Shown piece after piece: positions 9,292 through 55,844 of a DNA stretch of 64,000 nt. Location of the stretch: positions 2,976,001 to 3,040,000 of the forward strand of contig NZ_CP036259.1 of the NCBI RefSeq assembly GCF_007641255.1, read 5' to 3'. Numbering within the stretch: position 1 is the stretch's first letter; each line of letters starts with the position of its first letter. The notes beneath the pieces were generated by a model. That model did no database searches, had not been told where the DNA came from, and saw nothing but the letters and a program-made list of their open reading frames with translations. Position numbers and translations under genes: made by a program. The stretch is from Sporomusa termitida. Lineage in GTDB: Bacteria > Bacillota > Negativicutes > Sporomusales > Sporomusaceae.

Positions 9292-9945
9292 CTATTTTCT
9301 GCGTTTTTTCAGTTCCTCCAGCAATTCACTGGGAGCAATGTTATGGTTAGCCAGCAATACCAGGCAATGATACCAGAGATCTGCCATCTCATACAGGATC
9401 TCGGCTTTATCATGATTCTTAGAGGCAATAATAGTTTCGGCCGCTTCTTCCCCAACCTTTTTCAGGATTTTATCCTGGCCTTTTGCAAACAGGTAATTGG
9501 TATAAGAACCTTCTTGAGGATTGTGCTTGCGGTCATTGATGATATGATACAGTTCAAATAAAATGCCGGCTAGCGGCTCTTTATACACAGTGTCCGGAGC
9601 AATCGGCTTTTCTGCCTGGCCTTCTCCTGTATCCAGCCTGCGGCTAAAACAGGAGAAGGTTCCCTCATGGCAGGCGCTTCCTGTCTGGATTACTTTTACC
9701 AGAATCGTATCGGCGTCACAGTCATAATACAGTTCTTTGACAGCCTGCACATGGCCGGAGGTTTCGCCTTTCTGCCAGAGTGTCCGGCGGCTGCGGCTGT
9801 AAAACCAGGTTACACCGGTTTCCCTGGTTTTGCGGAGCGCCTCGGCGTTCATGTAGGCCAGCATGAGCACAGTGCCGCTGGCTTCATCCTGAACAATGGC
9901 CGGTACTAACCCCTGGTCATCATATTTTATGTTGACATCATTCAT
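9292..9945 (-). CDS. hisIE: Bifunctional phosphoribosyl-AMP cyclohydrolase / phosphoribosyl-ATP pyrophosphatase
   Basis: 217 residues catalysing steps 2 and 3 of histidine synthesis. The HisI domain (about residues 1-110) shows [28 protein letters not shown], the metal-site DCDADT and [11 protein letters not shown]. The HisE domain (about 125-217) shows [24 protein letters not shown] and [11 protein letters not shown]. Last gene of the his operon; its start overlaps the hisF stop by 4 bp. Confidence 0.96.
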
Positions 9946-35595: not shown

Positions 35596-36756
35596 TCAAA
35601 AAGTAGCGGCCTTATAATTATCTTTTCTTAGCGTTTGTACAGGCAGCAAAACAGAAAAAACACTCCCCCGGCCGACTGTGCTTTCCGCCTGAACTTTGCC
35701 GCCATGAATTTCGGCAAGCTGTTTGACAATAGCCAAACCAAGACCTGTGCCGCCGCTTTTTCTGTCCCGTGATTTATCACCCCGGTAAAAATGGTCAAAT
35801 AAATGCGGCAAATCAGTACTATCGATCCCCTGGCCGTTATCGGCAACAGTAACCCTTACCCAGTTCTGCTCTTCCAGCCTGATTTGAGCAGTGGCAATCG
35901 TTACCTGTCCCCCGGCCGCCGTATAACGAATGGCATTGGTGATCAGATTGTAAAAGATCTGGCAAATCCGGTCGGCATCAGCCATAATTGGCGGCAGCCC
36001 CGGCAGCAGATTCCGTTCAATGGTAACACCCTTGTCATCGGCAAGGGGTTTCAGCATATATACGGCTTGCTCCACAGTCTGATTAACACTAAGCTCTGTA
36101 ACCTCCAGTGATAATTGACGGACTTCGGCCAGGGACAAATCTTTCAGGTCTTTGATCAGTCTTGATAGGCGAATCGCTTCTTCATGGAGGGAAGTCAGCT
36201 GTTTCCTGTTAGGCTCAATAATGCCGTCAATCATGCCTTCCAGGTGACCTTGGATAACAGCAAGCGGGGTGCGTAATTCATGAGCGATATTGGCTTGAAA
36301 CTGTTGCCTTAACTTACTGTTATTATCCAAAGTTTCCGCCATGCTGTTGAAAACTACGGCCAGCCTGCCCACTTCATCGGTCGAGGGCACAGGTACTTTC
36401 TGGGCAAAATTCCCCCGTTCGATCTCCAGTGCGGCAGCACTTAATTTACGCAATGGCGTGGTAATGCTGAGGGCTAAGACATAACTCGCCCCCAGCCCGG
36501 CGACCAACAGGGCCACGCCGACCCAAATGAGGGACTGGTGGACTGATGTCAAAAAATTCTGTTCTAAATTGCCCATCATAACAGACTGACCCTCACTGCC
36601 TGCGCTCATATGACGGTGCATTTCGACCTGCTGAACAGTCACATACTCCTGAAATAAACCGGTCATTTGCATGTTTGCCAAATAGATGAGCGAAAACACA
36701 GTCATCGCCACCGCGAGAAACATCAGGCCTGTAATCCGGTAGATAATGCTATTCAT
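35596..36756 (-). CDS. Two-component sensor histidine kinase with Met/His-rich sensor loop
   Basis: 386 residues. Two membrane helices (about 8-27 and 75-97) flank a short extracytoplasmic loop of about 45 residues rich in Met and His (QVEMHRHMSAG, SVMMGNLEQ). HAMP, then HisKA with the phosphorylated His in NIAHELRTPLAVIQGHLEG (about residue 160), then the HATPase with NAIRYTAAGG, VADNGQGI and GGTGLGLAIVKQLAE. The Met/His content suggests a soft-metal ligand such as copper or silver (inference). The start overlaps the end of the response regulator gene by 8 bp. Confidence 0.93.
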   Translation of the reverse strand: MNSIIYRITGLMFLAVAMTVFSLIYLANMQMTGLFQEYVTVQQVEMHRHMSAGSEGQSVMMGNLEQNFLTSVHQSLIWVGVALLVAGLGASYVLALSITTPLRKLSAAALEIERGNFAQKVPVPSTDEVGRLAVVFNSMAETLDNNSKLRQQFQANIAHELRTPLAVIQGHLEGMIDGIIEPNRKQLTSLHEEAIRLSRLIKDLKDLSLAEVRQLSLEVTELSVNQTVEQAVYMLKPLADDKGVTIERNLLPGLPPIMADADRICQIFYNLITNAIRYTAAGGQVTIATAQIRLEEQNWVRVTVADNGQGIDSTDLPHLFDHFYRGDKSRDRKSGGTGLGLAIVKQLAEIHGGKVQAESTVGRGSVFSVLLPVQTLRKDNYKAATF

Positions 36757-37444
36757 GGGGGGTGCCTGCCATACGGTAGCCTACACCGTAAACGGTCTGG
36801 ATATATACCGGTTCTCTGGGGTTGTCTTCAATTTTCCGCCGTAAATTTTTAATATGCGCATCAATCGTTCGCTCATACCCTTCAAAGGAATAGCCCTGAG
36901 CCTGTTCCACAATCTGCAGCCGGCTAAAAACCCGGCCCGGATTGGCGGCCAACAGCTCCAGCATCTTAAACTCGGTCGGCGTAAGCTCAACAGTCTGCCC
37001 GCCTTTTGTTACCTGATACTGTTTCAGGTCGATAACTACATCCCCCAGCCGGACCGATTCAGTCTTGACTGTCGTTCGCTTGGTCCGGCGCAGAATGGCT
37101 TTGACACGGGCCACTACTTCTTTAGGACTAAAGGGTTTGGTCACATAATCATCGGCACCAATTTCCAACCCCACTAATCGGTCGCTTTCTTCCGCCCTGG
37201 CGGTCAGCATTAAGATGGGAACCTCATTATCGCGCCGCAGAGCCCGGCAGATATCCCAGCCGTCCATCCCCGGCAGCATTAAATCAAGCACCAGAATATC
37301 CGGCTCTTTCTCGCGGGCGGTTTTCAGGGCCGTTAACCCGTCATTGGCGGTAAACACCACAAACCCGTCTTTTTCAAAATACAATTGCAGCAATTCAACC
37401 AGTTTTGTATCATCATCAACAATTAAGACTGACCGTTGTGACAT
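36749..37444 (-). CDS. OmpR-family response regulator
   Basis: 231 residues. The receiver has acidic DDD at 10-12, phosphoacceptor Asp54 in ILVLDLMLPGMDG, Thr in LMLTARAEESD and Lys in DYVTKPFSPKE. The OmpR-type winged helix follows (VELTPTEFKMLELLAANPGRVFSR, RTIDAHIKNLRRKIE, VYGVGYRMA). Partner of the kinase just downstream. A site made of 11-bp-spaced direct repeats, the kind bound by this family, lies upstream of tolC at 52.6 kb; a link is only a hypothesis. Confidence 0.95.
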   Translation of the reverse strand: MSQRSVLIVDDDTKLVELLQLYFEKDGFVVFTANDGLTALKTAREKEPDILVLDLMLPGMDGWDICRALRRDNEVPILMLTARAEESDRLVGLEIGADDYVTKPFSPKEVVARVKAILRRTKRTTVKTESVRLGDVVIDLKQYQVTKGGQTVELTPTEFKMLELLAANPGRVFSRLQIVEQAQGYSFEGYERTIDAHIKNLRRKIEDNPREPVYIQTVYGVGYRMAGTPHE

Positions 37445-37815
37445 TCTTCAACCCTCCAGTGGTTATTATTACTTACACATCCGTACCTTGTATATACCTA
37501 TAAATCTATTTATATTATAACATAGACCCCATCACCCGCGTGCAGCACATATTGCCAAGCCCTGCAGCCGGCAGCAGCAACCGGTAGCCCTTTTTATGAT
37601 AAATGTCTGCTCACTCTTAGACTACACCATTGAAATTTATTAATTGTGTGCTGGGCAAAAAAAAACCGGCTTTAGTGTCAATTAGCGGCCGTATCAAACT
37701 TATGTGATTTACTGCGCCTTGTTTTTCTGATAATATATGCCTATACACATATTGTGTTAACAATGACTATACTCTCTGACATTCAGAATACCAGTATACT
37801 AGTTGAGGTGATTTT
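37445..37815. other. Divergent intergenic region
   Basis: 371 bp between the response regulator and the DUF881 gene. I see no gene. It is AT-rich at both ends (promoter-like TATATTATAA near 37510; TATACT near 37768) with a GC-rich middle and an A9 tract near 37658. No clear hairpin terminator or known RNA motif was found. Confidence 0.5.
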
Positions 37816-42197: not shown

Positions 42198-42305
42198 TTA
42201 GTTTTCAACTTCATATCCGAGATTATGCAATTATGCGAATACATTTGTTATGACAGAAGAATACTAAAAAGCATTGATATGTTCTCAGATACCGGGAGGA
42301 AAAGC

Positions 42306-44947
42306 ATGCCAACTTATACACTTTTGTTTACTGAAATCAGTAAACAGGATTTACCAATGGTAGGCGGCAAAGGGGCAAACTTGGGAGAAATTTCTAAAAT
42401 AGACAAAGTGAACGTACCGCCGGGGTTTTGTGTCACCACAGAAGCATATCAATCTTTTGTCACGACAAGCCCGGCGTTAGCCGGTTTTTTAGACCAACTC
42501 TACGATTTAGAGGTTGAAAACTCCGACACGGTCCAATTGTTGGGGCAGCGCATCCGTCAGCATATGGAAAGCCTGCCGGTGCCAGACGATATCCGGCGGC
42601 AAATAAATCAAGCCTGGCAGGAAACAGGCGGAGATTATGCTTATGCCGTTCGCTCCAGTGCGACAGCAGAAGACCTGCCCGGCGCATCATTTGCCGGGCA
42701 GCAGGATACTTACCTGAACATTCAAGGGATTGACGCCATTGTCGATCATGTCCAGAAATGCTGGGCCTCTTTGTTCAGCGACCGCGCCATCGTGTATCGC
42801 GCCCGCAACGGCTTTGATCATAAAAAAGTTTTGCTGGCCGTGGTTGTACAGCAGATGATTGCCCCGGAAGTATCGGGGATTATGTTTACTGCCGACCCGG
42901 TAAACGGCAATCGCAGGGTTATCTCCATTGACGCCGGCTTTGGCTTGGGCGAAACATTGGTGAGCGGCACGGTTACCGCCGACCTCTACAAGGTGAAAGA
43001 AAATAACATTCTGAAAAAACAGCTTGGTGATAAAAAAATCGCTGTATATGCCGTACCGGAGGGTGGTACCAGGGAAAGATCACTGCCTGTCGAAATGTCC
43101 AAGTGCCAGGCGCTCACCGACGAACAAACGCTCGTATTGGCGGCAATCGGCAAAAACATTGAACGCCATTTGTCTTCCCCCCAGGACATTGAATGGTGTT
43201 TTGCTGACGGCATTTTCTATATTGTGCAAAGCAGGCCGATTACTACGCTCTACCCATTGCCTGAACTTGCCGATAACCGGTTTCGTGTATTCGCCTCCCT
43301 TGGGCATCAGCAAATGATGACCGATCCCATGAAGCCGCTTGGACTTTCACTGTTTCATTTTTCGGAACCCTATGCTCAGATCCTGGTTCCCGTCGGAGGA
43401 CGTTTATTTTGTGACATTACCTCTACCTGCTCCCCTGGGCAGAAACAGTCAATCGTCATGGGAACAATGGATGTTTTGATGGGCAGCGCCATCGACGAGG
43501 TCAAAAACCGCCGTGATCTTGTCGCCTTGCTGCAACCGGAAGCAAAACAAACGTTTAGCTTTGCCGGACTAAAAAAGCTGGCTGGGCCAGTGTTTAAAAT
43601 CTTAGAAAATCTGACGGCCAAAGATCCAAGCCAGGCCTATAATTTTTATGGTTTGTCTGAGGAAAAAATTGCTGAAGCGCAACAAACGTTAGAACAGCTT
43701 GCCGGCGGCGACAAAATCAGGTTTATTGACCGGGATAAAATGGAAATGTTCAAATGGGTCCTGCAGGGCAATATGATGGGACCGTTTATCGCCAGTATCC
43801 TGGCCTTTGAATTAATTGACCGCTTTTGTAAACGCTGGCTGGGAGACAGCAAAGAGGTCGAGCATTTAGGCAAATCACCGCCCAGGAATGATACCAGTGA
43901 AATGGGCCTGGCGCTTGGCGATCTCGCCGATATTATACGTCAGTATCCCGCCGTTATCGCTTATCTGCCTCAGGCCGGCGACAACACGCTGTTGGCAGGA
44001 CTGGAAACGGTCGAAGGCGGCCGCATTGTTAAACCGGTTTTTGAGGAATTTCTCCAGCACTATGGCATGCGGTGTACCGGAGAAATTGATATTACACGGC
44101 CCCGCAACCCAGCCAGCTTATCCCGGCAATCCTAAGCCATATTCAAAGCGTACAGCCAGGTGAACATCGCCGTAAGTTTGCCGAAGGCGAAAAACGGGCA
44201 GAAGAAGCGGCCAAAATGCTGTCAGCCCGCTTAAAAAAAATAAAGGGCGGCGCCGTAAGAGCAAAAATCATGGACAAGCTCGTTAAAACCTATCGGGGAC
44301 TGGCCGGCTTTAGAGAATACCCCAAATATTTCATTGTCGCCCACTTTAACTTATATAAACAAGCCATTATGAAAGAAGCGGAAAAGCTTGTTTGTCAGGG
44401 AGTGCTTAACCAGGCCGAAGATGTGTATTATCTGTCCCTTACTGAACTGGAGCAAGTTATCCGGGCAGCTCATGCCGATCAGCAATTGATTGCTGACCGT
44501 AAGGAAAAATACCGGGAATATGAAAAACTAACGCCGCCCAGGGTGATGACCAGTGAAGGTGAAATCATCAATGGCAGCTATGGCGAACAGGCTGCACCGC
44601 CGGGAGCGCTGCCCGGAATCCCGGTATCGGCCGGAATCGTGGAGGGACGCGCCCGGGTCATTCTAAAACCGGAGCAAGCAAAGCTGGACAAAGGGGATAT
44701 CCTGGTGGCCGCCTTTACAGATCCTGGCTGGACTCCGTTTTTTGTATCGGCAAGCGGCGTAGTTACCGAAGTGGGCGGACTAATGACCCATGGTGCGATT
44801 GTAGCCCGCGAATATGGTATTCCAGCCGTTGTGGGCGTCCAGCAGGCTACCAGTCTCATTCGGGAGGGGCAGCGAATTCGCGTGAACGGGACCAAAGGCT
44901 ATATTGAACTACTGGATGATTTGCCGCCTGCCAGCCCGGTACATTAA
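42306..44947 (+). pseudogene. PEP synthase / rifampicin phosphotransferase family gene, frameshifted
   Basis: Start ATG at 42306 after GGGAGGAAAAGC. Frame 1 runs to a stop at 44135: an N-terminal PPDK-type ATP-binding domain (LPMVGGKGANLGEI, AYAVRSSATAEDLPGASFAGQQDTYLNI, GIMFTADPVNGN, DIEWCFADGIFYIVQSRPITTL) and a middle domain to YGMRCTGEIDITRPR. Homology then continues in another frame from about 44108 (PSQLIPAILSHIQSVQPG) to 44947, ending in the swivelling phosphohistidine domain (GGLMTHGAIVAREYGIPAVVG). Family members read about WNEDP at the junction, so a loss of roughly ten bases at 44105-44108 is likely. Together the parts give about 880 codons, normal for the family. A functional split pair cannot be excluded. 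Confidence 0.85.
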
Positions 44948-45130: not shown

Positions 45131-45568
45131 CTATCCGTGATGCCAACTATGACCGGCAGGAAAACTGTCGCCGTCCTGCTCAGCCGGTTGCGGCGCGCCG
45201 TGATCGCTGTCCATATCCACAGAATTTACCAAGTCGGCCATGATTTGATGAAAGGCCATATCCTGCTGAAGCATTTGCTTCATGACCCCCTGCAGCTCGG
45301 GCGTTTTCATCATATCCTTCATTACCTGCTGCATGGCGGGGTCTTTCATCATGTCCAGGCACTGCTTTTGCATCGCCGGTGTCTTCATCATTTCAGCCAT
45401 GGCCTGGGGGTTCATTTTTCCCGGCATCACCCCGGGCTGATTGGCCTGCGTTCCCCAGGCCTGCGTCGATTTTTCAGGCGCCCCGGCGATTGCCGGGCTG
45501 ACTCCTACAGCCAGCACCGCCGCAGTTAACAGGCCGCCAACAGCCCAAACGCTAAACTTTTTGTTCAC
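45131..45568 (-). CDS. Exported Met-rich repeat protein at the end of the cus operon
   Basis: About 145 residues from a GTG at 45568 with GGGAGGG upstream; an ATG at 45604 lacks a ribosome site. Signal peptide (VWAVGGLLTAAVLAVGVSPAIAG). The mature part has tandem degenerate repeats of about 11 residues: MAEMMKTPAMQ, LDMMKDPAMQQ, VMKDMMKTPELQ, then QMLQQDMAFHQIM. It ends in an acidic/His tail (DMDSDHG, HSWHHG). About 18 Met in the exported part would suit Cu(I) or Ag(I) binding through thioethers. No named domain is recognised. Last gene of the tolC-cusBA operon. Confidence 0.8.
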   Translation of the reverse strand: MNKKFSVWAVGGLLTAAVLAVGVSPAIAGAPEKSTQAWGTQANQPGVMPGKMNPQAMAEMMKTPAMQKQCLDMMKDPAMQQVMKDMMKTPELQGVMKQMLQQDMAFHQIMADLVNSVDMDSDHGAPQPAEQDGDSFPAGHSWHHG

Positions 45569-45613
45569 CCTAAACCCTCCCAGATAATTATTGTTGCTAT
45601 TCATAGGTTCTTA

Positions 45614-46168
45614 TTATAATACCCGCTTGGCCCCATAATAGCGGTTGACAAAATAAGTGTCGCTCATATCACCAAATGCTACAATGCCCTGGCCAAAAGA
45701 GGTATGGATAAATTTGCCGCCGCCGGTATAAATGCCCACATGGGAGGCACCCTGTTCATAAGTGCTGAAATACACCAGGTCACCTGGCTGCAGGTCTGCC
45801 GGCGCAACCGTCCGCCCGACCATAAACTGCAAGTCGGCGGTCCGCGACAAGTTGACACCGGCCTGCCTGTAGACATACTGCACCAGGCCGGAGCAGTCAA
45901 ATCCCTGGGCCGGTGAAGCCCCGCCCCACACCACCTGCCGGCCGAGCAGATTCCGGGCAGACGCTACAACAAGGGCCGTCCGGCTGGCTATAGCCGGGCT
46001 GAAAACAGGGATCTGCCGCTCTGCGGCGACAGGCATAACGGCACCGGCCAAAATCGCCTCAAGCGACTGCAGAAACTGGTTATAGCCGGGAGCCGGAGCG
46101 GCTGCCGCCACAGCCGTGCCGCCAAACAGGACTCCGGCCAGGATTATGGGCAGTATCCATTTACGCAT
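45614..46168 (-). CDS. NlpC/P60 cell-wall hydrolase
   Basis: 184 residues. A signal peptide (ILAGVLFGGTAVAAAAP) and a C-terminal NlpC/P60 domain: VVWGGASPAQGFDCSGLVQYVY with the catalytic Cys at about residue 91, SHVGIYTGGGKFIHT with the two His residues. It cleaves peptide crosslinks in peptidoglycan. Its place inside a copper efflux operon is unusual; it may open the wall for assembly of the trans-envelope pump (inference). Confidence 0.92.
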   Translation of the reverse strand: MRKWILPIILAGVLFGGTAVAAAAPAPGYNQFLQSLEAILAGAVMPVAAERQIPVFSPAIASRTALVVASARNLLGRQVVWGGASPAQGFDCSGLVQYVYRQAGVNLSRTADLQFMVGRTVAPADLQPGDLVYFSTYEQGASHVGIYTGGGKFIHTSFGQGIVAFGDMSDTYFVNRYYGAKRVL

Positions 46169-46191: not shown

Positions 46192-46653
46192 TTAATGACT
46201 CATAGTCTGCAGGTGAGCTGTCGTTTGCTTCATCAGGTCCTGCATAGCTTTTGCCTGGTCCTCGATAACTGCCGGGTCCACCTTGCCGGCATTAACCTTA
46301 TCCTTAATGTCAACGGCCGCTGTGCGCAATTTATCTTTTAATCCGGCATCCATCATATGCGGCATAACCTTATCGGTAATACTCACAAGCTGCCCGGCGC
46401 TGTTTTGCGCCGCCATGATCTGTCCGGCCTGCACCTGCTTGACAACGTCCTGCAGGTTTTTTTCCATGTCTTTCATCATGGGCATCGGATCTTCCTTCGG
46501 CATCGAGGCACTATGACTCTGGTGGCCGGCCGCCTGCTCCTGGGCGGCCGGAGGCGGCGCCGCCGCTTTCTGACCGGCGCCACCGCAGCCTGTTACCAGA
46601 ACAACGGCCGCCGTGATGGCTAACAGGCCCAGAACTATTTTACTTTTTTTCAT
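46192..46653 (-). CDS. Met/His-containing lipoprotein of the cus operon
   Basis: 153 residues. Lipoprotein signal VVLVTGC with lipid Cys at residue 23, then a Pro/Ala linker and GHQSHSASMPKEDPMPMMKDME. The rest is predicted mostly helical with scattered Met and His (VMPHMMDAG, HLQTMSH). It may capture copper or silver outside the membrane like CusF, though it has no CusF fold motif. It lies 26 bp after cusA. Confidence 0.8.
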   Translation of the reverse strand: MKKSKIVLGLLAITAAVVLVTGCGGAGQKAAAPPPAAQEQAAGHQSHSASMPKEDPMPMMKDMEKNLQDVVKQVQAGQIMAAQNSAGQLVSITDKVMPHMMDAGLKDKLRTAAVDIKDKVNAGKVDPAVIEDQAKAMQDLMKQTTAHLQTMSH

Positions 46654-46679: not shown

Positions 46680-49600
46680 TTATTTGGCGACAGGCTCCCT
46701 GCCGGCAGCAGCCGTCTGCTTGCGCTCCCGCCACTGGTTCCAGACCAGGTAGATGCACGGCAGCACGATCAGGGTCAGCACCGTGGAAGTGACCAGACCG
46801 CCCACGACAACGGTGGCCATTGGCCGCTGTACCTCGGCCCCGGTACCGGTGGCAAACAGCAAGGGGAACAGCCCCAGGCTGGCGACAAGCGCGGTAATCA
46901 TAACTGGCCGCAGCCGGGTTAAGGCGCCTTCAATAATGGCTTCCTCCAGCGTCCGGTGGTCGCGCAGGTGTTTAATATACGTTACCATAATGACCCCGTT
47001 TTGCACAGCAATACCAAACAGGGCAATGAAGCCGACAGCCGCAGCGACCGTGAGGTAGGTGCCGGTGAGATACATGGCCACAATGCCCCCCACCAGGGAG
47101 AAGGGGATGTTCAGCAGAATAAGAAAGGCATCGCTGGCAGACTTGAAGGTCAAATACAATAAGAAGAAAGTCAGGATAATGACTGCCGGCACGACCAGTG
47201 ACAACCGGTCTTTCGCCCGCTGCTGGTGCTCATACTGGCCGGTCCATTGCAGGGAATAACCGGCAGGCAGGTCGACTTTTTCTTTAATCACCTGATTGGC
47301 TTCATTAACAAAGCCGACAATATCCCGGTCCCGGGCATTCATTTGAATAATCATCCGGTACACGCCATTATCGCTGCTGATCATGGACGGTCCGTCCACA
47401 ACCTGGAACCGGGCCACCTCGCCCAGCGGTACATAAGCCCCGCTGACCGGCGCGGCTGGGGCGGCAGGTACGCTATCGCCCATGCCGTCCATCCCGTCGC
47501 CGCCGGTTTTGGCCATAGCCCCGCTGCCGGTTACGGGAATAAGGATATTTTGCATGGCTTCGATTGTCTCCCGGTTTTCCCGGTTATAACGGACGAGAAC
47601 ATTAAAGCGTTTGCGGCCTTCAATCGTGGTCGTGGCGGTTTTGCCGCCGACTGCCAGTTCGACGGCGTCTTCGACGTCGGCAATGTTCAGGCCATACCGC
47701 GCCGCCTGTTCCCGGTTGACCTCAATCTCCAGATAGGAAGCGCCAAAGACCCGCTCGGCTAAAAGATCGCTGACCCCCGGCACCGTTGCCAGGGCTTGCT
47801 CAATAGCAAAGGCTTTTTGCTGCAATACCTGCAGATCTTCCCCATAGAGTTTGATCCCCAATTCGGTGCGGACGCCGGTTGTCAGCATGGCCAGCCGGCC
47901 GGCAATCGGCTGGGTAAAAGCTAAGTTGAGTCCGGGAATATTGGCCAGTTTAACCATCATTTCCTGCTCAATGGCCTCTTTGGTCATCCCGGCCCGCCAC
48001 TGCGCTTGGGGTTTGAGGGTAACAATCGTCTCAATCATGCTGATGGGTGCCGGGTCCATGGCCGACTCGGCCCGGCCAACCTTGCCCACAGACATCTCAA
48101 TCTCCGGAATTTCCTCAATAACCTTATCCATCGTTTTGGCCGCTGCCACCGCCTCGGTGAGGGACACACTGGGCAGCATAGTCGGCATAACCAGGAATGT
48201 CCCTTCATCCAAAGCCGGCATAAAGCTGGTGCCAATGAGCGGCAGGAGTGAAAAGCCGGCCAGCATGACAATAACGGCAATGGCAATCGTGGCCTTGCTG
48301 TGCCGCAGCACTGACTTGACCGCAGGCCGATACCATTGATGCAGCCTGGCGACAATCCAGGTATCTTTTTCCTGGATTTTTCCTCTGAGCAACAGGGTGC
48401 AGAGTACCGGCACCAGCGTGAAAGCCAGCAGCAGTGACCCGCTCATAGCGAAGGATTTGGCCCAGGCCATCGGCGTATACAGCTTGCCCTCGGTGCCGGT
48501 CATGGTAAATACGGGCAGGAAGGTGACGATGATAATCATAATGGAAAAGAAAATCGGGGCTGCCACTTCTTTGGCCGCTTCCAGGGTCACCTCGACAATA
48601 TCACGGCGGCCCCGGTCTTCAGCCAAATGGCGGTAGATATTCTCCACCATAACAATAGCCGCGTCGGTCATAACACCGATGCCGATGGCGATACCGCCAA
48701 GGGACATCAAATTAGCCGACAGGTGGATCTGCTGCATGGCAATCAGCGCGATAAGAATCCCCAGGGGAATGGCGCTGGTCACAATCAGGCTGGACCGCAG
48801 GTTGCCCAAAAAAGCGACGACAATAATTGACACAAGGATGAATTCTTCCACCAGGGCCCGGGTCAGGGTATTGACCGCTTTTTTTACCAGGTCGGTTTGA
48901 TCATAAAAAGGCACAATCCGCATGCCTGCAGGCAAGGTTGGCTCGATTTCAGCAATCTTGGCTTTTACCTGATCAATCACATTCAGCGTATTTTCGCCCA
49001 TCCGCTGAATGACAATCCCCCCGGCCGCCTCATAACCGGATTTAGTCAGCACACCCCGGCGGAAATCGGGCCCGGTGGTTACCTGGGCTACATCTTTAAT
49101 ATAAACAGGCACATTGTTATTCTGGGTAAGGACAATATTCTTAATATCGTCAGGCGACTGGATTAAGCCCAGCCCGCGGACGATAAACTCCTGACCGTTT
49201 TGCTCGACCACCTTCGCCCCGATATTGGCATTGTTGGCGCCAAGGGCGGCAAATACCTGGTTGAAGCTGACCCGGTAGCTTTGCAAAAGCTGGGGGTCCA
49301 GATTAATCTGGTATTGCATTACATAACCGCCAATGCTGGCAACTTCGGCTACCCCCGGCACGGCGCTCAACTGCTGCTTAATGGTAAAGTCTTCGACAGT
49401 TCGTAAATCAGCCAGATTGTGGCGGTCACTTTCCACGGTATACATAAAGACCTGGCCCATCGGGGTGCTGACAGGTCCTAAAGCCGGCTGCACACCCCGT
49501 GGCAATTGGGGAATAGCCTGCTGGACTTTTTCATTCACCACCTGGCGGGCAAAGTAAGGATCTACCCCGTCTTCAAAAATAACAGTGATGAGTGACATCC

Positions 49601-49865
49601 CAAACGAAGAGGCAGAGCGTACTTCCTTCACGTCCGGCAGCCCCCGCAGGGCCGTTTCCAGCGGATAAGTGACCTGATCCTGAATTTCCTGCGGCCCCCG
49701 CCCCATCCAGTCAGCCGCGACAAGTACCTGATTCTCACTGAGGTCAGGAAACGCGTCAATGGGGGTATCGCGGACCACAAAGATTCCCCAGACCAGGACC
49801 AGGGCCGATAAAGCCAGGATAATCACACGATTGTGTATGGAAAACTCGATGATTCTGTTTAACAT
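46680..49865 (-). CDS. cusA: Heavy-metal RND efflux pump, CusA type
   Basis: 1061 residues, an HME-RND inner-membrane pump with about 12 membrane helices in two repeats. Markers: DAFPDLSENQVLVAADWMGRGPQEIQDQVTYPLE-type N-terminus, GVMTDAAIVMVEN in helix 4 and the CusA-like GRAESAMDPAPISMIET with Met residues of the porter domain. Monovalent copper or silver is the likely substrate. An insert of about 30 residues near 790-815 (AKTGGDGMDGMGDSVP) is Gly/Met-rich and not usual. It works with the adaptor and TolC encoded upstream. Confidence 0.94.
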   Translation of the reverse strand: MLNRIIEFSIHNRVIILALSALVLVWGIFVVRDTPIDAFPDLSENQVLVAADWMGRGPQEIQDQVTYPLETALRGLPDVKEVRSASSFGMSLITVIFEDGVDPYFARQVVNEKVQQAIPQLPRGVQPALGPVSTPMGQVFMYTVESDRHNLADLRTVEDFTIKQQLSAVPGVAEVASIGGYVMQYQINLDPQLLQSYRVSFNQVFAALGANNANIGAKVVEQNGQEFIVRGLGLIQSPDDIKNIVLTQNNNVPVYIKDVAQVTTGPDFRRGVLTKSGYEAAGGIVIQRMGENTLNVIDQVKAKIAEIEPTLPAGMRIVPFYDQTDLVKKAVNTLTRALVEEFILVSIIVVAFLGNLRSSLIVTSAIPLGILIALIAMQQIHLSANLMSLGGIAIGIGVMTDAAIVMVENIYRHLAEDRGRRDIVEVTLEAAKEVAAPIFFSIMIIIVTFLPVFTMTGTEGKLYTPMAWAKSFAMSGSLLLAFTLVPVLCTLLLRGKIQEKDTWIVARLHQWYRPAVKSVLRHSKATIAIAVIVMLAGFSLLPLIGTSFMPALDEGTFLVMPTMLPSVSLTEAVAAAKTMDKVIEEIPEIEMSVGKVGRAESAMDPAPISMIETIVTLKPQAQWRAGMTKEAIEQEMMVKLANIPGLNLAFTQPIAGRLAMLTTGVRTELGIKLYGEDLQVLQQKAFAIEQALATVPGVSDLLAERVFGASYLEIEVNREQAARYGLNIADVEDAVELAVGGKTATTTIEGRKRFNVLVRYNRENRETIEAMQNILIPVTGSGAMAKTGGDGMDGMGDSVPAAPAAPVSGAYVPLGEVARFQVVDGPSMISSDNGVYRMIIQMNARDRDIVGFVNEANQVIKEKVDLPAGYSLQWTGQYEHQQRAKDRLSLVVPAVIILTFFLLYLTFKSASDAFLILLNIPFSLVGGIVAMYLTGTYLTVAAAVGFIALFGIAVQNGVIMVTYIKHLRDHRTLEEAIIEGALTRLRPVMITALVASLGLFPLLFATGTGAEVQRPMATVVVGGLVTSTVLTLIVLPCIYLVWNQWRERKQTAAAGREPVAK

Positions 49866-51169: not shown

Positions 51170-52516
51170 TTATTCAAGCGAGCCATCCACACTGGTAAAC
51201 AAGGGCTTGCCTACCGCTTTTTCCAGATTAGCCGCCGCTTTTTCATAATCCACCTTGGCCTTGTACAAACCAAGCTTGGCATTGCGCAGGGTATTAACCC
51301 CTTCCAGGACAGTCATGAAGTCAACCTTGCCGTTGGTATACCCGACTACCGCCGCCTGGTAAGTCTGCTCAGCCTGGGGAATGATTGTGTTTTTATACAA
51401 TTCAATCTGCCGCCAGGCTGCCTGCGCTTCCGTAAGAGCCATCTGGACATCAAGCTCGGCCATGTTTTTCATATTCTGGAGGGCCGCCTGCGAAGCCTCG
51501 AAGCCGGCCTGGGCCGCTTTGATTTCGGCTTTGTTTTTGCCTTGCCAGATAGGCAGCATCGCCATAACCTCAATCTTCCAGGTTGGTTTTCTCTCCTCCA
51601 GCATGAGTGTGGTATTCATCGGATTCATATGATCCACCTGTTCTTCCACCATCGGTTCTTTGTTTTTTTTGTAGCCCAGCCGGACCTCAAAATCAGGCAG
51701 CCGCTGCTTCTTGGCCAGTTCAATGCCGTTTTGGGCCATTTCCACCTGATACTCCATGCCGGTTACGGCCGGCTTGCTTTCAGCGGCTTTAACCAGGTAG
51801 GCCAGATCAAAGTTAGGCGGCGGTGCCGTAAACTCTTCCTTCACCGCCAGACCCGTATTGGTGCTGCGGCCCATCAGGTTGTTAAGCTTGGCTTTGGCCA
51901 CCGCCTCCATTGACGCCATATCTAACAGATCGATTGTCATCTGCGAAAACTCGGTCTGGGCTTTCAGGGTATCCTGCAGAGGCACCATACCGGTAGCGTA
52001 ATTGATTTGGGCCAATTGTACCAGCTGGCCCATAAGCTGCTGGCTTTCCTTGCCGATGCTCAGCGCCTGCCGGAAATACAGATAATCGTAATAAGCCTGT
52101 TTGGCCTGGGTATATACCTCAAGCTGTTTGTCATTCCAGCCGGCTCTGGCCATATTGGCCTCACTGCCGGCCATCTTCCCCATCGCTTTCAGCTTAGACG
52201 GATTCATAAACTCCTGGCTGAGGCCAAACTCGGTCATCATCCCCTGGCCGGGATTCAAGCTGGAGGTAGGAATGTCGTCCTTCATAATCCCGAATTTGAG
52301 ATTGGGCTGGGCCGTAACAGCGGGAATCCGGCTGGCTTTCTCCTCCCATTGCTTTTGCGTCTCGACAACGGCCGGATTATTGCGGACAGCATAATTCACA
52401 ATCTCCTGCAACGTCAGGGGCTGCTCGGCCGCAAGCACCGGCTGCAAATTAGCGGTGACCATAATCGCAAAGACGATAAGTGCGCTTAAAATACCAGGTT
52501 TGGCCATGCTGCTCAT
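51170..52516 (-). CDS. TolC-family outer-membrane efflux protein
   Basis: 448 residues. A signal peptide ends LQPVLAAE near residue 30. Two TolC repeats follow: LTLQEIVNYAVRNNPAV and LAYLVKAAESKPAVTGMEYQVEMAQNGIELAKKQRLPDFEVRLGYK, with a long coiled-coil half ending AAANLEKAVGK. It forms the outer-membrane channel of the copper/silver pump and is direct evidence of a diderm cell. First gene of the operon. Confidence 0.93.
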   Translation of the reverse strand: MSSMAKPGILSALIVFAIMVTANLQPVLAAEQPLTLQEIVNYAVRNNPAVVETQKQWEEKASRIPAVTAQPNLKFGIMKDDIPTSSLNPGQGMMTEFGLSQEFMNPSKLKAMGKMAGSEANMARAGWNDKQLEVYTQAKQAYYDYLYFRQALSIGKESQQLMGQLVQLAQINYATGMVPLQDTLKAQTEFSQMTIDLLDMASMEAVAKAKLNNLMGRSTNTGLAVKEEFTAPPPNFDLAYLVKAAESKPAVTGMEYQVEMAQNGIELAKKQRLPDFEVRLGYKKNKEPMVEEQVDHMNPMNTTLMLEERKPTWKIEVMAMLPIWQGKNKAEIKAAQAGFEASQAALQNMKNMAELDVQMALTEAQAAWRQIELYKNTIIPQAEQTYQAAVVGYTNGKVDFMTVLEGVNTLRNAKLGLYKAKVDYEKAAANLEKAVGKPLFTSVDGSLE

Positions 52517-52604
52517 TGTTCAACCTCCCTTAAGATTATATATTTATCAACTCTCGATGTAAGAGCCTATGTAGAGGTGCCTGTCTGTACTATAGCGTAA
52601 AGTT

Positions 52605-52642
52605 TTGAAGAACTAATGAAGAAACTATGAAAATGTTATGAA
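52605..52642 (-). promoter_or_regulatory. Four 11-bp-spaced direct repeats upstream of tolC-cusBA
   Basis: TTGAA at 52605 and ATGAA at 52616, 52627 and 52638 are spaced exactly 11 bp apart (TTCAT-N6 repeats on the minus strand). They lie about 90-125 bp upstream of the tolC start. One-turn-spaced direct repeats are typical of OmpR/PhoB-family binding sites. No CsoR palindrome is seen here, so this operon is probably under separate control from csoR-copA-copZ. Confidence 0.6.
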
Positions 52643-52703: not shown

Positions 52704-52747
52704 GTAAAAAAATACGCAAGCGCCTGAAAATCAGGTTCTTGCGTATT
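52704..52747 (-). terminator. Rho-independent terminator after copZ
   Basis: AATACGCAAG (52711-52720) pairs with CTTGCGTATT (52738-52747) plus an inner CCTGA/TCAGG stem. On the minus strand it is followed by a seven-T run. It separates the csoR-copA-copZ unit from the tolC operon. Confidence 0.92.
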
Positions 52748-52764: not shown

Positions 52765-52968
52765 TTACACTACGTCAAAGCCGGTATCTTCGACCGCCTT
52801 AACCAGTGCCGCCCGGTCAGCAGTGCCGGTGACCAGTGCTTCCTTTTTGGCCAGGTCAACACTGGCGCTTATAACGCCGGGAACAGCCTGCAGGGCCTTT
52901 TCCACACTCATTTTGCAATGTCCGCAGGACATTCCCTCAATTTTCAATATCGTTTGTTCTTGGCTCAC
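52765..52968 (-). CDS. copZ: Copper chaperone CopZ
   Basis: 67 residues, a single heavy-metal-associated domain with the GMSCGHC site (Cys15, Cys18). The ferredoxin-like fold is completed by VEKALQAVPGVISASVDLAKKEALV. It carries Cu(I) to the ATPase CopA encoded 46 bp upstream. Confidence 0.95.
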   Translation of the reverse strand: MSQEQTILKIEGMSCGHCKMSVEKALQAVPGVISASVDLAKKEALVTGTADRAALVKAVEDTGFDVV

Positions 52969-53014: not shown

Positions 53015-55441
53015 TTAGGGCTTATAGGGGTTAAACCGTTTCAGTCGCAGGGCATTGGTAACCACCGATACCGAACTGAAGGCCATGGCCGCACCGGCCA
53101 GCACCGGTGACAGAAACCCGGCTGCCGCCACGGGAATACCTAGTGAATTATAAACCAGCGCCCAGAACAGATTCTGTTTAATGTTCCGCATCGTTGCCCG
53201 GCTTAAACGGATAGCCGCCACAATTCCGGTCAGGTCGCCCCGCATGAGGGTAATATCGGCCGCCGCAATCGCCACATCGGTGCCGGTCCCGATTGCAAAG
53301 CCCACATCGGCCGTAGCCAGCGCCGGCGCATCGTTTATGCCGTCACCAACCATAGCGACAATCTTGCCTTCCTGTTTTAGCGCCGCAACCTTTTCCGCCT
53401 TATGTTCCGGCAATACCTCAGCCATAACATTGGTTATGCCGACCGCGCCGGCGATGGCCCGGGCGGTCCGGCTGTTGTCCCCGGTTATCATCCATACTTC
53501 GATACCCATGTTTTGCAGCCCGGCCACCGCTTCGGCCGAATTCGCTTTCACAGTGTCAGCCACCGCAAATAACCCGCTGAGCTGGTTTTCCAGGGCGAAC
53601 AACATGACTGTCTTGCCCTGAAGCTCCAGCTCTTCCATTGGCCCGATCGCGCCGGCAATATCAATCGCGTTGTCCTGCAGCAGTTTCCGGGTGCCTACCA
53701 GAATTCTCTGCCCGTCAACGGTAACCTCGACCCCGTGCCCCGGTATGGCCGTAAAGGAGGCCGGATCTTCCGGCACAAGCCCCTGCTGTTTGCCATAGCT
53801 GACAATCGCCTGCGCCAGGGGATGCTCGGAGTTTTTCTCGGCCCTGACCGCCAGCTGCAGGAGCGTCGCCGCATCCAGACCGGCCATGGGTATAATATCG
53901 GTAATTTCCGGTTCCCCTTTCGTGATGGTGCCGGTTTTATCAAGGACAATGGTTGTCAGCCGGTGGGCATGCTCTAAATGCTCGGCCCCCTTGATCAGAA
54001 TACCATGCTCGGCGCCTTTGCCGGTGCCCACCATAATGGAGGTCGGCGTGGCTAGGCCCAGGGCACAGGGGCAGGCGATAACCAGCACGGCCGTAAAATT
54101 AACCAAGGCCCGCGAAAAATTGCCGGCGTCCAGGAGGAAGAACCAGGCGGCAAAGGTTAGCAGCGCTAACCCGACGACAGCCGGCACAAAATAGGCCGAC
54201 ACCACATCGGCAAAGCGCTGGATGGGCGCCTTCGAGCCCTGGGCCTCTTCGACAATCCGGACAATCTGGGCCAGGGCCGTATCTTTGCCGACCTTGGTAG
54301 CCTCAAATTTGAAGGTGCCTAATTTATTGATGGTGGCACCAACCACCTGGTCACCGGCCTTTTTATCAACAGGCAGGCTTTCGCCGGTCAGCATCGATTC
54401 ATCAATTGTCGATGTCCCGTCCACAATCACACCGTCGACCGGCACTTTTTCCCCCGGGCGCACGACAACAATATCACCGGTCAGGACCTCGGCAATGGGA
54501 ATGTCCAATTCCCGGCCGTCGCGCACCACCCTGGCCGTCTTGGCCTGCAGCCCCATGAGCGCCTTAATCGCCTCCGAGGTCCGCCCCTTGGCCGTCGCTT
54601 CCAGCAATTTTCCTAAAATAATCAGCGTGATCAAAATAGCCGAGGTTTCAAAATACAGATCCGGGTCCTGGCGCAGCACATTCGCCACACTGTAAAAATA
54701 AGCCGCCGAGGTGCCCAGTACTACCAGGACATCCATATTGGCACTGCCATTCTTCAGTACGATATAGGCGCCCCGGTAAAACTGCCAGCCGGCAATGAAC
54801 TGAACAGGCGTAGCCAATACCCATTGCAGGTAGGGATTCATCAGGAAATGGGCAACGCTGTCCATTACCCCCAGCATATGCAAAACCATAGCCAGCAGCA
54901 GCGGCAGGGAGAATACGGCCGCCACCAGCAGCCGCAGGCGCTGTCTGGTTACCTCGGCCTCCCGGGCCTCCTTTTCCCTGTCGACCGCGGCGGTATCGGT
55001 TAGATCATGCGCGCCAAACCCCAGCTGCTCGATCTTAGCCTTGATATCGGCGATGCCGCTAACCCCCGCATAATATTCTACCGTTGCTTTTTCCACCGCC
55101 AGATTAACAACCGCGCTGGTCACCCCGGGCAGTTTGCCCAGGCCTCTTTCTATCCGGCCGGAGCAGGCGGCGCAGGTCATGCCGGTAATCTTTACCTCCA
55201 CCTTGTCCCTGACCACCTGATAGCCCAGAGCTTCAATCTTGTGCACGATTTCGCCCAGGCTGGTCCGGGAACTGTCATAGGTTACAGCGGCCTTCTCCGT
55301 CGCCAGGTTAACCGCCGCCTTTTCCACCCCCGGCAGCTTGGCGAGCCCCCGTTCCACCCGGCCCGAACAGGCCGCACAGGTCATCCCACCCACCTTTAAA
55401 AACACGGTTGCCAGCGGCAACGACGCCTTGGCCTCAGACAT
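53015..55441 (-). CDS. copA: Copper-exporting P1B-type ATPase CopA
   Basis: 808 residues. Two N-terminal metal-binding domains, each with GMTCAAC (about residues 19-25 and 89-95). Eight membrane helices, with the transport motif CPC (VIACPCALG) at about residue 455; TGES in the actuator domain; phosphorylated Asp in DKTGT at about 499; HP locus SEHPLA; and GDGINDAP hinge. Cu(I) export from the cytoplasm, and in a diderm into the periplasm, where the Cus pump can take over. The second gene after csoR. Confidence 0.97.
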
Positions 55442-55511: not shown

Positions 55512-55781
55512 TTACTTTGTAAATTTGGATAAAACGCCCATTAATTCATCGATGGCTTCCTCAGTACGGTCTTCCCTGATGGCATTGACCACACAGCTCT
55601 TCGTATGGCTCTCAATCATAATCAGGGCAACCTGATTGAGGGCCGCCCTGGCCGCCATAATCTGCTGCAGAACCTCCACACAATAGCGGCTCTCATCAAT
55701 CATTTTCTCAATACCGTTGATTTGGCCGCTGATCCGCCGCAGCCTTTTTTTTATATCAATTTTTTCTTTATCATCCAGCAT
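55512..55781 (-). CDS. csoR: CsoR copper-sensing repressor
   Basis: 89 residues from the ATG at 55781, which has GTAGGAGGG upstream; the frame extends to 55913 across the promoter without a start signal. All-helical CsoR/RcnR-family protein (KKRLRRISGQINGIEKMI). The copper ligands Cys34, His59 and Cys63 keep the same spacing as the Cys-His-Cys triad of CsoR and so predict Cu(I), not nickel, sensing. First gene of csoR-copA-copZ. Confidence 0.95.
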   Translation of the reverse strand: MLDDKEKIDIKKRLRRISGQINGIEKMIDESRYCVEVLQQIMAARAALNQVALIMIESHTKSCVVNAIREDRTEEAIDELMGVLSKFTK

Positions 55782-55792
55782 ACAGACCCTCC

Positions 55793-55844
55793 TACTATAC
55801 CCCCGTATAGTATATATTTTAATCCGGCTGCAATATATTGTCAA
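55793..55844 (-). promoter_or_regulatory. csoR-copA-copZ promoter and CsoR operator
   Basis: On the minus strand: TTGACA (55844-55839), 17-bp spacer, TAAAAT (55821-55816). Immediately downstream is a perfect 8-bp inverted repeat with a G/C-rich centre, TACTATAC-GGGG-GTATAGTA (55793-55812). This matches the TATAC-G/C-GTATA type of operator bound by CsoR. The site covers the start of transcription, consistent with copper-relieved repression. Confidence 0.85.

Follow-up and report, generated by a model that had tools for sequence, protein, structure and literature searches.

Four short boxes, set at exact 11-bp steps, precede the tolC-cusBA copper-pump genes in the window, the stretch of 64,000 nucleotides of the Sporomusa termitida genome analysed here. 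They form a real and widely conserved site which, judged by comparison with relatives, most probably serves a two-component copper regulator as its binding place. Very probably, the boxes act as a tandem operator of the response regulator encoded at 36749-37444, which would be switched by copper via its sensor kinase and activate tolC-cusBA; csoR-copA-copZ would be under the control of CsoR. A predicted regulator, box and promoter geometry are supplied for copper export in this group, and a search of the open-access literature found no published copper two-component system for it. Spo0A and LpxC in the genome suggest a relative of the spore-forming Firmicutes that bears an outer membrane, presumably of the class Negativicutes.

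Box array and promoter of tolC

The array and its -10 are located as follows.

52638..52642, minus strand: box 1, promoter-distal TTCAT (plus-strand ATGAA); sequence, profile match
52627..52631, minus strand: box 2, TTCAT (plus-strand ATGAA); sequence, profile match
52616..52620, minus strand: box 3, TTCAT (plus-strand ATGAA); sequence, profile match
52605..52609, minus strand: box 4, promoter-proximal TTCAA (plus-strand TTGAA); sequence, profile match
52589..52594, minus strand: -10 hexamer TATAGT, 15 bp from box 4 (start to start); sequence

An earlier note on this DNA had described four (A/T)TGAA boxes at 11-bp steps upstream of tolC-cusBA, of a kind bound by OmpR/PhoB-family regulators. 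The boxes are read directly in the sequence: the minus (coding) strand from 52642 to 52605 is TTCAT-N6-TTCAT-N6-TTCAT-N6-TTCAA, and the -10 TATAGT lies about 70 bp from the tolC start. Inspection of the array promoter in the window and in the printed relatives revealed no -35. The family assignment is supported as well. Conserved tandem direct repeats with an 11-bp period, about one helical turn, are typical of OmpR/PhoB sites, and the fixed phase of 15 bp to a -10 that has no -35 is that of a class II activator. The array looks like a PhoB-type activator promoter without a -35. In the pho box of PhoB, the -35 is replaced by 11-bp direct repeats, which lie some 10 bp ahead of the -10. The promoter of tolC shares the 11-bp direct repeats replacing the -35; it differs in box sequence and partner genes, and the window regulator scores under the PhoB cut-off.

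A genome scan found the array to be the sole exact three-box match in the 5.3-Mb genome; the exact pattern gave 2 matches, both overlapping registers of the tolC array. When up to one mismatch was allowed, the whole genome gave 6 matches and the reversed control 2; three boxes combined with TANNNT at the fixed distance matched once in the source genome and not at all in the control. The relatives supplied 37 sites for a site profile from which the window was excluded. It matched the tolC array (52588-52641, minus strand) with 41.8 bits and a whole-genome E of 4.4e-10; the runner-up inside the window reached 8.9 bits. A second genomic site (24.7 bits, E = 1e-4) is located upstream of a gene for a DUF6803 membrane protein on contig 1 at about 577,750 (L097:1590-2093). 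DUF6803 homologues also stand behind arrays in three relatives' loci (L055, L077 and L078), immediately preceding the regulator.

The boxes are conserved in orthologous promoters, a point on which the earlier note had made its reading depend. A strict test, which asked for a three-box score of 13/15 or more no further than 450 bp from tolC, was passed upstream of the orthologous tolC in 19 of 27 relatives (20/28 with the window). It failed in the other 8 of the 27. In six of these (L008, L014, L015, L023, L026 and L029), an array or two-box site is present but weaker or more distant upstream; the tolC promoter of L032 is interrupted by the contig end, and L031 is the one among the 27 relatives in which no array was found near tolC.

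The spacing is equally specific. In 29 relative loci (stretches of up to 20 kb) and the window, 96 arrays had 11-bp spacing, against 3, 4, 2, 15, 0, 1 and 7 at spacings of 8, 9, 10, 12, 13, 14 and 15 bp; three Markov-1 controls gave 5, 2 and 2 arrays. Although the arrays had been chosen without requiring a -10, 75 of the 96 showed a -10-like hexamer, matching TATAAT at 5 or more of 6 positions, exactly 15 bp away from where the last box starts; the next commonest offset accounted for 10 arrays. Across 24 genomes, three boxes with a phased TANNNT gave 72 matches, overlapping registers included, and 1 in the control.

A chance repeat in an AT-rich spacer has a negligible probability. A loose scan of the window alone, allowing 2 mismatches in three boxes, found 3 matches, a level that 6 of 100 shuffles equalled, and is the weaker evidence; chance origin was nevertheless rejected on the uniqueness of the array in the genome, its class-wide conservation, and the spacing and profile statistics.

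Pump unit, regulator and signal

The array heads a likely operon of six genes.

51170..52516, minus strand: tolC-like outer-membrane channel (OEP), first gene of the unit; Pfam PF02321
49877..51148, minus strand: cusB-like adaptor; Pfam HlyD_D23, NCBIfam RND_mfp above cut-off
46680..49865, minus strand: cusA-like HME-RND pump; TIGR00914 with 1148 bits, cut-off 701
46192..46653, minus strand: Met/His-containing lipoprotein, downstream in the likely operon; ORF sequence
45614..46168, minus strand: NlpC/P60 protein, downstream; domain match
45131..45604, minus strand: Met-rich secreted protein, downstream; ORF sequence

The product of 46680-49865 is placed among the HME-RND pumps by the TIGR00914 cut-off and the Met triad of CusA. 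Its best PDB match is E. coli CusA, and it has methionine at all three positions aligned to the Met ligands of that protein, at the residue numbers that we take to be those of the ligands. Homologues of the lipoprotein come after cusA in many relatives. Homologues of the Met-rich secreted protein stand directly behind an array in L045, L046 and L047, and those of both proteins carry their own array promoters in G011, G036 and G022. Other gene families behind arrays in relatives are annotated as DUF2933-like or encode small secreted proteins rich in Met or His; further array-driven genes are presumably LemA-like, Lgt-like and TPM-like. Beyond the unit in the window, a PEP-synthase-like enzyme appears as two consecutive ORFs, 42225-44135 and 44216-44947, which may reflect a broken gene or an error in the sequence.

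The proposed regulator and its kinase are encoded apart from the pump.

36749..37444, minus strand: response regulator, putative box binder; receiver and winged-helix domains, relatives' loci
35596..36756, minus strand: cognate sensor kinase with a short Met/His-rich extracytoplasmic loop; HAMP, HisKA, HATPase

The domain match identified 36749-37444 as the OmpR/PhoB-type response regulator that had been named as the candidate. Comparison with relatives supports it as the right one for the array, since it is the sole member of its subfamily found, its homologues lie beside tolC-cusBA, and array and subfamily occur together. Regulator homologues are present in 17 of 29 tolC loci (15 of the close type), and regulator-kinase-tolC-cusB-cusA is a common gene order. 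Of the genomes with a regulator at least 60% identical, 39 of 40 had an array at E <= 1e-4, as did 2 of the 20 genomes that lack such a regulator, namely G024, which is 65% complete, and G033 (Fisher 3.7e-12, with kinship ignored and the 1e-4 cut chosen after the table was viewed). At E <= 0.01, the counts were 40/40 and 6/20.

A genuine OmpR/PhoB-family operator could also be read here by a different regulator, the one at 36749 having lost its link to the array. The latter is encoded 15 kb from the boxes, its own promoter has no array, and the genome has many other response regulators. We consider this unlikely. No other regulator at least 60% identical was found among the 48 of 53 first-look candidates scored, the next being at most 49% identical among the matches listed, and the subfamily goes with the array across genomes. 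The recognition helix RTIDAHIKNLRRK is identical to that of array-bearing relatives. In G007, of the same genus, the gene order is tolC-cusB-cusA-lipoprotein-regulator-kinase, so that a regulator 86% identical to that of the window (kinase 79%) lies right behind the pump genes.

Many relatives of the regulator appear to control themselves. An array, here two exact TTCA boxes with a phased TA...T at most 900 bp upstream, precedes the gene of 25 of 43 distinct regulators at least 60% identical; 7 of the 18 array-free regulators offered less than 900 bp of upstream sequence. The same was seen for 6 of 12 members of the clade of the window regulator (support 100/99) and for most of its nearest relatives with enough upstream sequence. 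The 900 bp upstream of the window regulator, including the gap at 37445-37815, held no array. The positive autoregulation of the relatives is therefore absent here: the autoregulatory loop was lost from the source genome or never existed in it, and two target sites were retained.

Copper is the probable signal. The extracytoplasmic loops of 35 kinases (about 46 residues, with borders set crudely) contain 11.6% Met, 5.7% His and no Cys. An alternative reading keeps the regulator and array but makes the main signal silver, a further metal or envelope stress; among the nearest curated families are BaeR/BaeS and MtrA, none of which is matched above its cut-off. There is some chance of this, but a small one, against which stand the Met triad of CusA, the Met/His-rich sensor loops without Cys and the copper genes around related regulators.

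In the mechanism that we infer, excess Cu(I), perhaps also Ag(I), would be sensed outside the inner membrane by the kinase (35596-36756). Once phosphorylated, the regulator would occupy the four boxes in a head-to-tail arrangement, with one box for each helical turn, from about -22 to -60. It would replace the missing -35 and touch RNA polymerase beside the -10 at 52594-52589. This would switch on tolC-cusB-cusA, probably together with the three small envelope genes behind.

The csoR-copA-copZ circuit

A second copper unit lies upstream of the array.

55816..55844, minus strand: csoR promoter TTGACA-17-TAAAAT; sequence
55793..55812, minus strand: CsoR-like operator TACTATAC-GGGG-GTATAGTA, inverted repeat with 8-bp perfect arms (plus-strand centre CCCC)
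55512..55781, minus strand: csoR-like repressor; Pfam Trns_repr_metal, start codon checked
53015..55441, minus strand: copA copper P-type ATPase; TIGR01511 with 630 bits, cut-off 397
52765..52968, minus strand: copZ-like HMA protein; domain match
52706..52747, minus strand: hairpin and T run, probable terminator, between copZ and the array; fold

A separate CsoR site at 55793 had been claimed, and an inverted repeat of the CsoR type does occupy 55793-55812, just downstream of the csoR -10. Similar operators were seen in L037, L038 and L064. The copper ligands of CsoR are Cys-His-Cys. The csoR product has the metal-repressor fold and a C-H-C in its ORF, and the operator is GC-centred; its scores are under the cut-offs of all 3 listed NCBIfam models, RicR, RcnR and FrmR.

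The hairpin folds at -21 kcal/mol (z = -5.17), which none of 200 shuffles equalled, and L037 and L038 have similar hairpins. The earlier suggestion that the Cus and Cop systems answer to different sensors gains support from this arrangement. With a promoter and CsoR-like operator ahead of csoR and a hairpin with T run ahead of the array, the two units are best read as controlled separately, one by CsoR and the other by the two-component system, beside possible read-through. The csoR-copA-copZ genes would then answer to CsoR as a sensor of cytoplasmic copper.

Expression of tolC-cusBA could come mainly from read-through out of csoR-copA-copZ or from a sigma-70-like promoter, with the array only modulating it. 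A consensus scan found CTTACA-17-TATAAT, scoring 10/12, at 52563-52535 between array and tolC, and its terminator counterpart had no entry between copZ and the array. This is quite improbable: a transcript started from 52563-52535 would begin in or beside the ribosome site, the hairpin with its T run has a fold far more stable than those of shuffled sequences, and the array promoter is conserved, whereas CTTACA-17-TATAAT was not common by eye in the printed leaders of relatives. Activation through the array is preferred.

Known copper systems and sister regulators

There is precedent for a copper two-component system whose 11-bp TTCAT direct repeat stands ahead of an RND pump, as seen from the CopR box of C. 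glutamicum and the plasmid repeats of Synechocystis. The published CopR box is TGAAGATTTgaTGAAGATTT, a direct repeat with an 11-bp period (PMC3140484). CopRS is likewise an OmpR-family copper activator, and its box is near the window unit ATGAAGAAACT. It differs from the window in having two repeats per site instead of four, and its targets are a P-type ATPase and a multicopper oxidase, with no RND pump. TGAAG recurs with the 11-bp period in the window, in full in the boxes ATGAAG and TTGAAG; ATGAAA and ATGAAT share TGAA only. The YclJ box of Bacillus subtilis, TTCATANTTTGTTCATA, is nearly identical to the window box, and to our knowledge YclJ is not known as a copper system.

In Synechocystis, the two-component copper system CopRS-copBAC drives an HME-RND pump (PMC4335983; PMC13421787). 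The sequence of plasmid pSYSX contains TTTCAT-N5-TTTCAT with an 11-bp period before copM (DUF305) and before the pump genes, so that the repeat period and the place ahead of an RND pump are shared with the window. Unlike in the window, there are two boxes, the regulator is only 33% identical and the sensor domain is large. The pSYSX repeats (L203:6700-6740 and 9420-9450) may be a shared box or a convergence.

CusRS provides two-component control of the CusCBA pump with periplasmic copper sensing in E. coli and relatives (PMC10100754), and the window also combines a two-component system with a CusCBA-type pump. The sites differ: CusR, the Pseudomonas CusR/CopR/CzcR proteins and AgrR bind palindromes (PMC11195947, PMC7380067), whereas the window boxes are direct repeats. 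Membership of the window pair in CusRS was rejected on NCBIfam cut-offs. The regulator scored 183 bits against TIGR01387 (heavy-metal regulator, cut-off 279) and 166 bits against PRK09836 (CusR, cut-off 420); the kinase scored 194 bits against TIGR01386 (heavy-metal sensor kinase, cut-off 293) and 133 bits against PRK09835 (CusS, cut-off 423).

More distant relatives of the regulator are encoded on plasmids. One of C. comes is 47% identical and belongs to a copper locus with TGAAGACTTGATGAAGATTT before the regulator gene; the tree placed it outside the clade of the window regulator, on a long branch that makes the position unsure. Plasmid relatives in Rubrobacter and Carnobacterium also lie among copper genes, that of Carnobacterium behind TCCAT boxes. 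A wider contig search drew 80 relatives, near ones excluded, from a total exceeding 588; among these and the plasmid loci, a three-box array with an in-phase -10 before the regulator was found only in L103 (Desulfosporosinus).

A sister group of 6 regulators (tree support 100/100) has the recognition helix RT[VI]DSHIKNLRKK, and the group of the window has mostly RT[IV]DAH[IVM]KN[LI]RRK. All 4 loci that hold a sister regulator, and none of the 26 others, contained a pair of adjoining TCCA boxes with a phased TA...T (Fisher 3.6e-5 over 30 stretches, kinship ignored). The match of box and regulator is not clean, because directly before the genes of the sister (DSH) regulators TTCA boxes stand in 4/6 cases, TCCA in 1/6 and none in 1/6. 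Genome-wide TCCA counts were near background, with 1-5 matches per genome and 0-6 in controls, and are given no weight; what counts is the proximity of TCCA boxes to the sister regulators. Three genomes have only a sister-type regulator (54-56% identical); the genome scan showed a convincing TCCA site in G055 and none in G029 and G059. Such paired variants of regulator and box offer a natural test of how DNA specificity changes in the OmpR family.

We lean, with little more than even confidence, towards a single promoter code that would be read by a non-CusR subfamily and make up a class-wide copper regulon of outer-membrane-bearing, Spo0A-bearing bacteria: TTCATA repeated every 11 bp, with the last repeat ending 9 bp ahead of the -10. 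The code would scale from two sites here to dozens in metal islands of relatives, and the DSH sister would have begun to read TCCA. The spread from two to dozens of sites would represent regulon growth by copying of one promoter module.

Large metal islands with many array promoters were observed in relatives, with 43, 35 and 25 profile hits in G005, G006 and G011. They are located on contigs G005:C20, G006:C36 and C34, and G011:C1. On G005:C20 (207,755 bases), the hits listed extend from base 439 to 203849.
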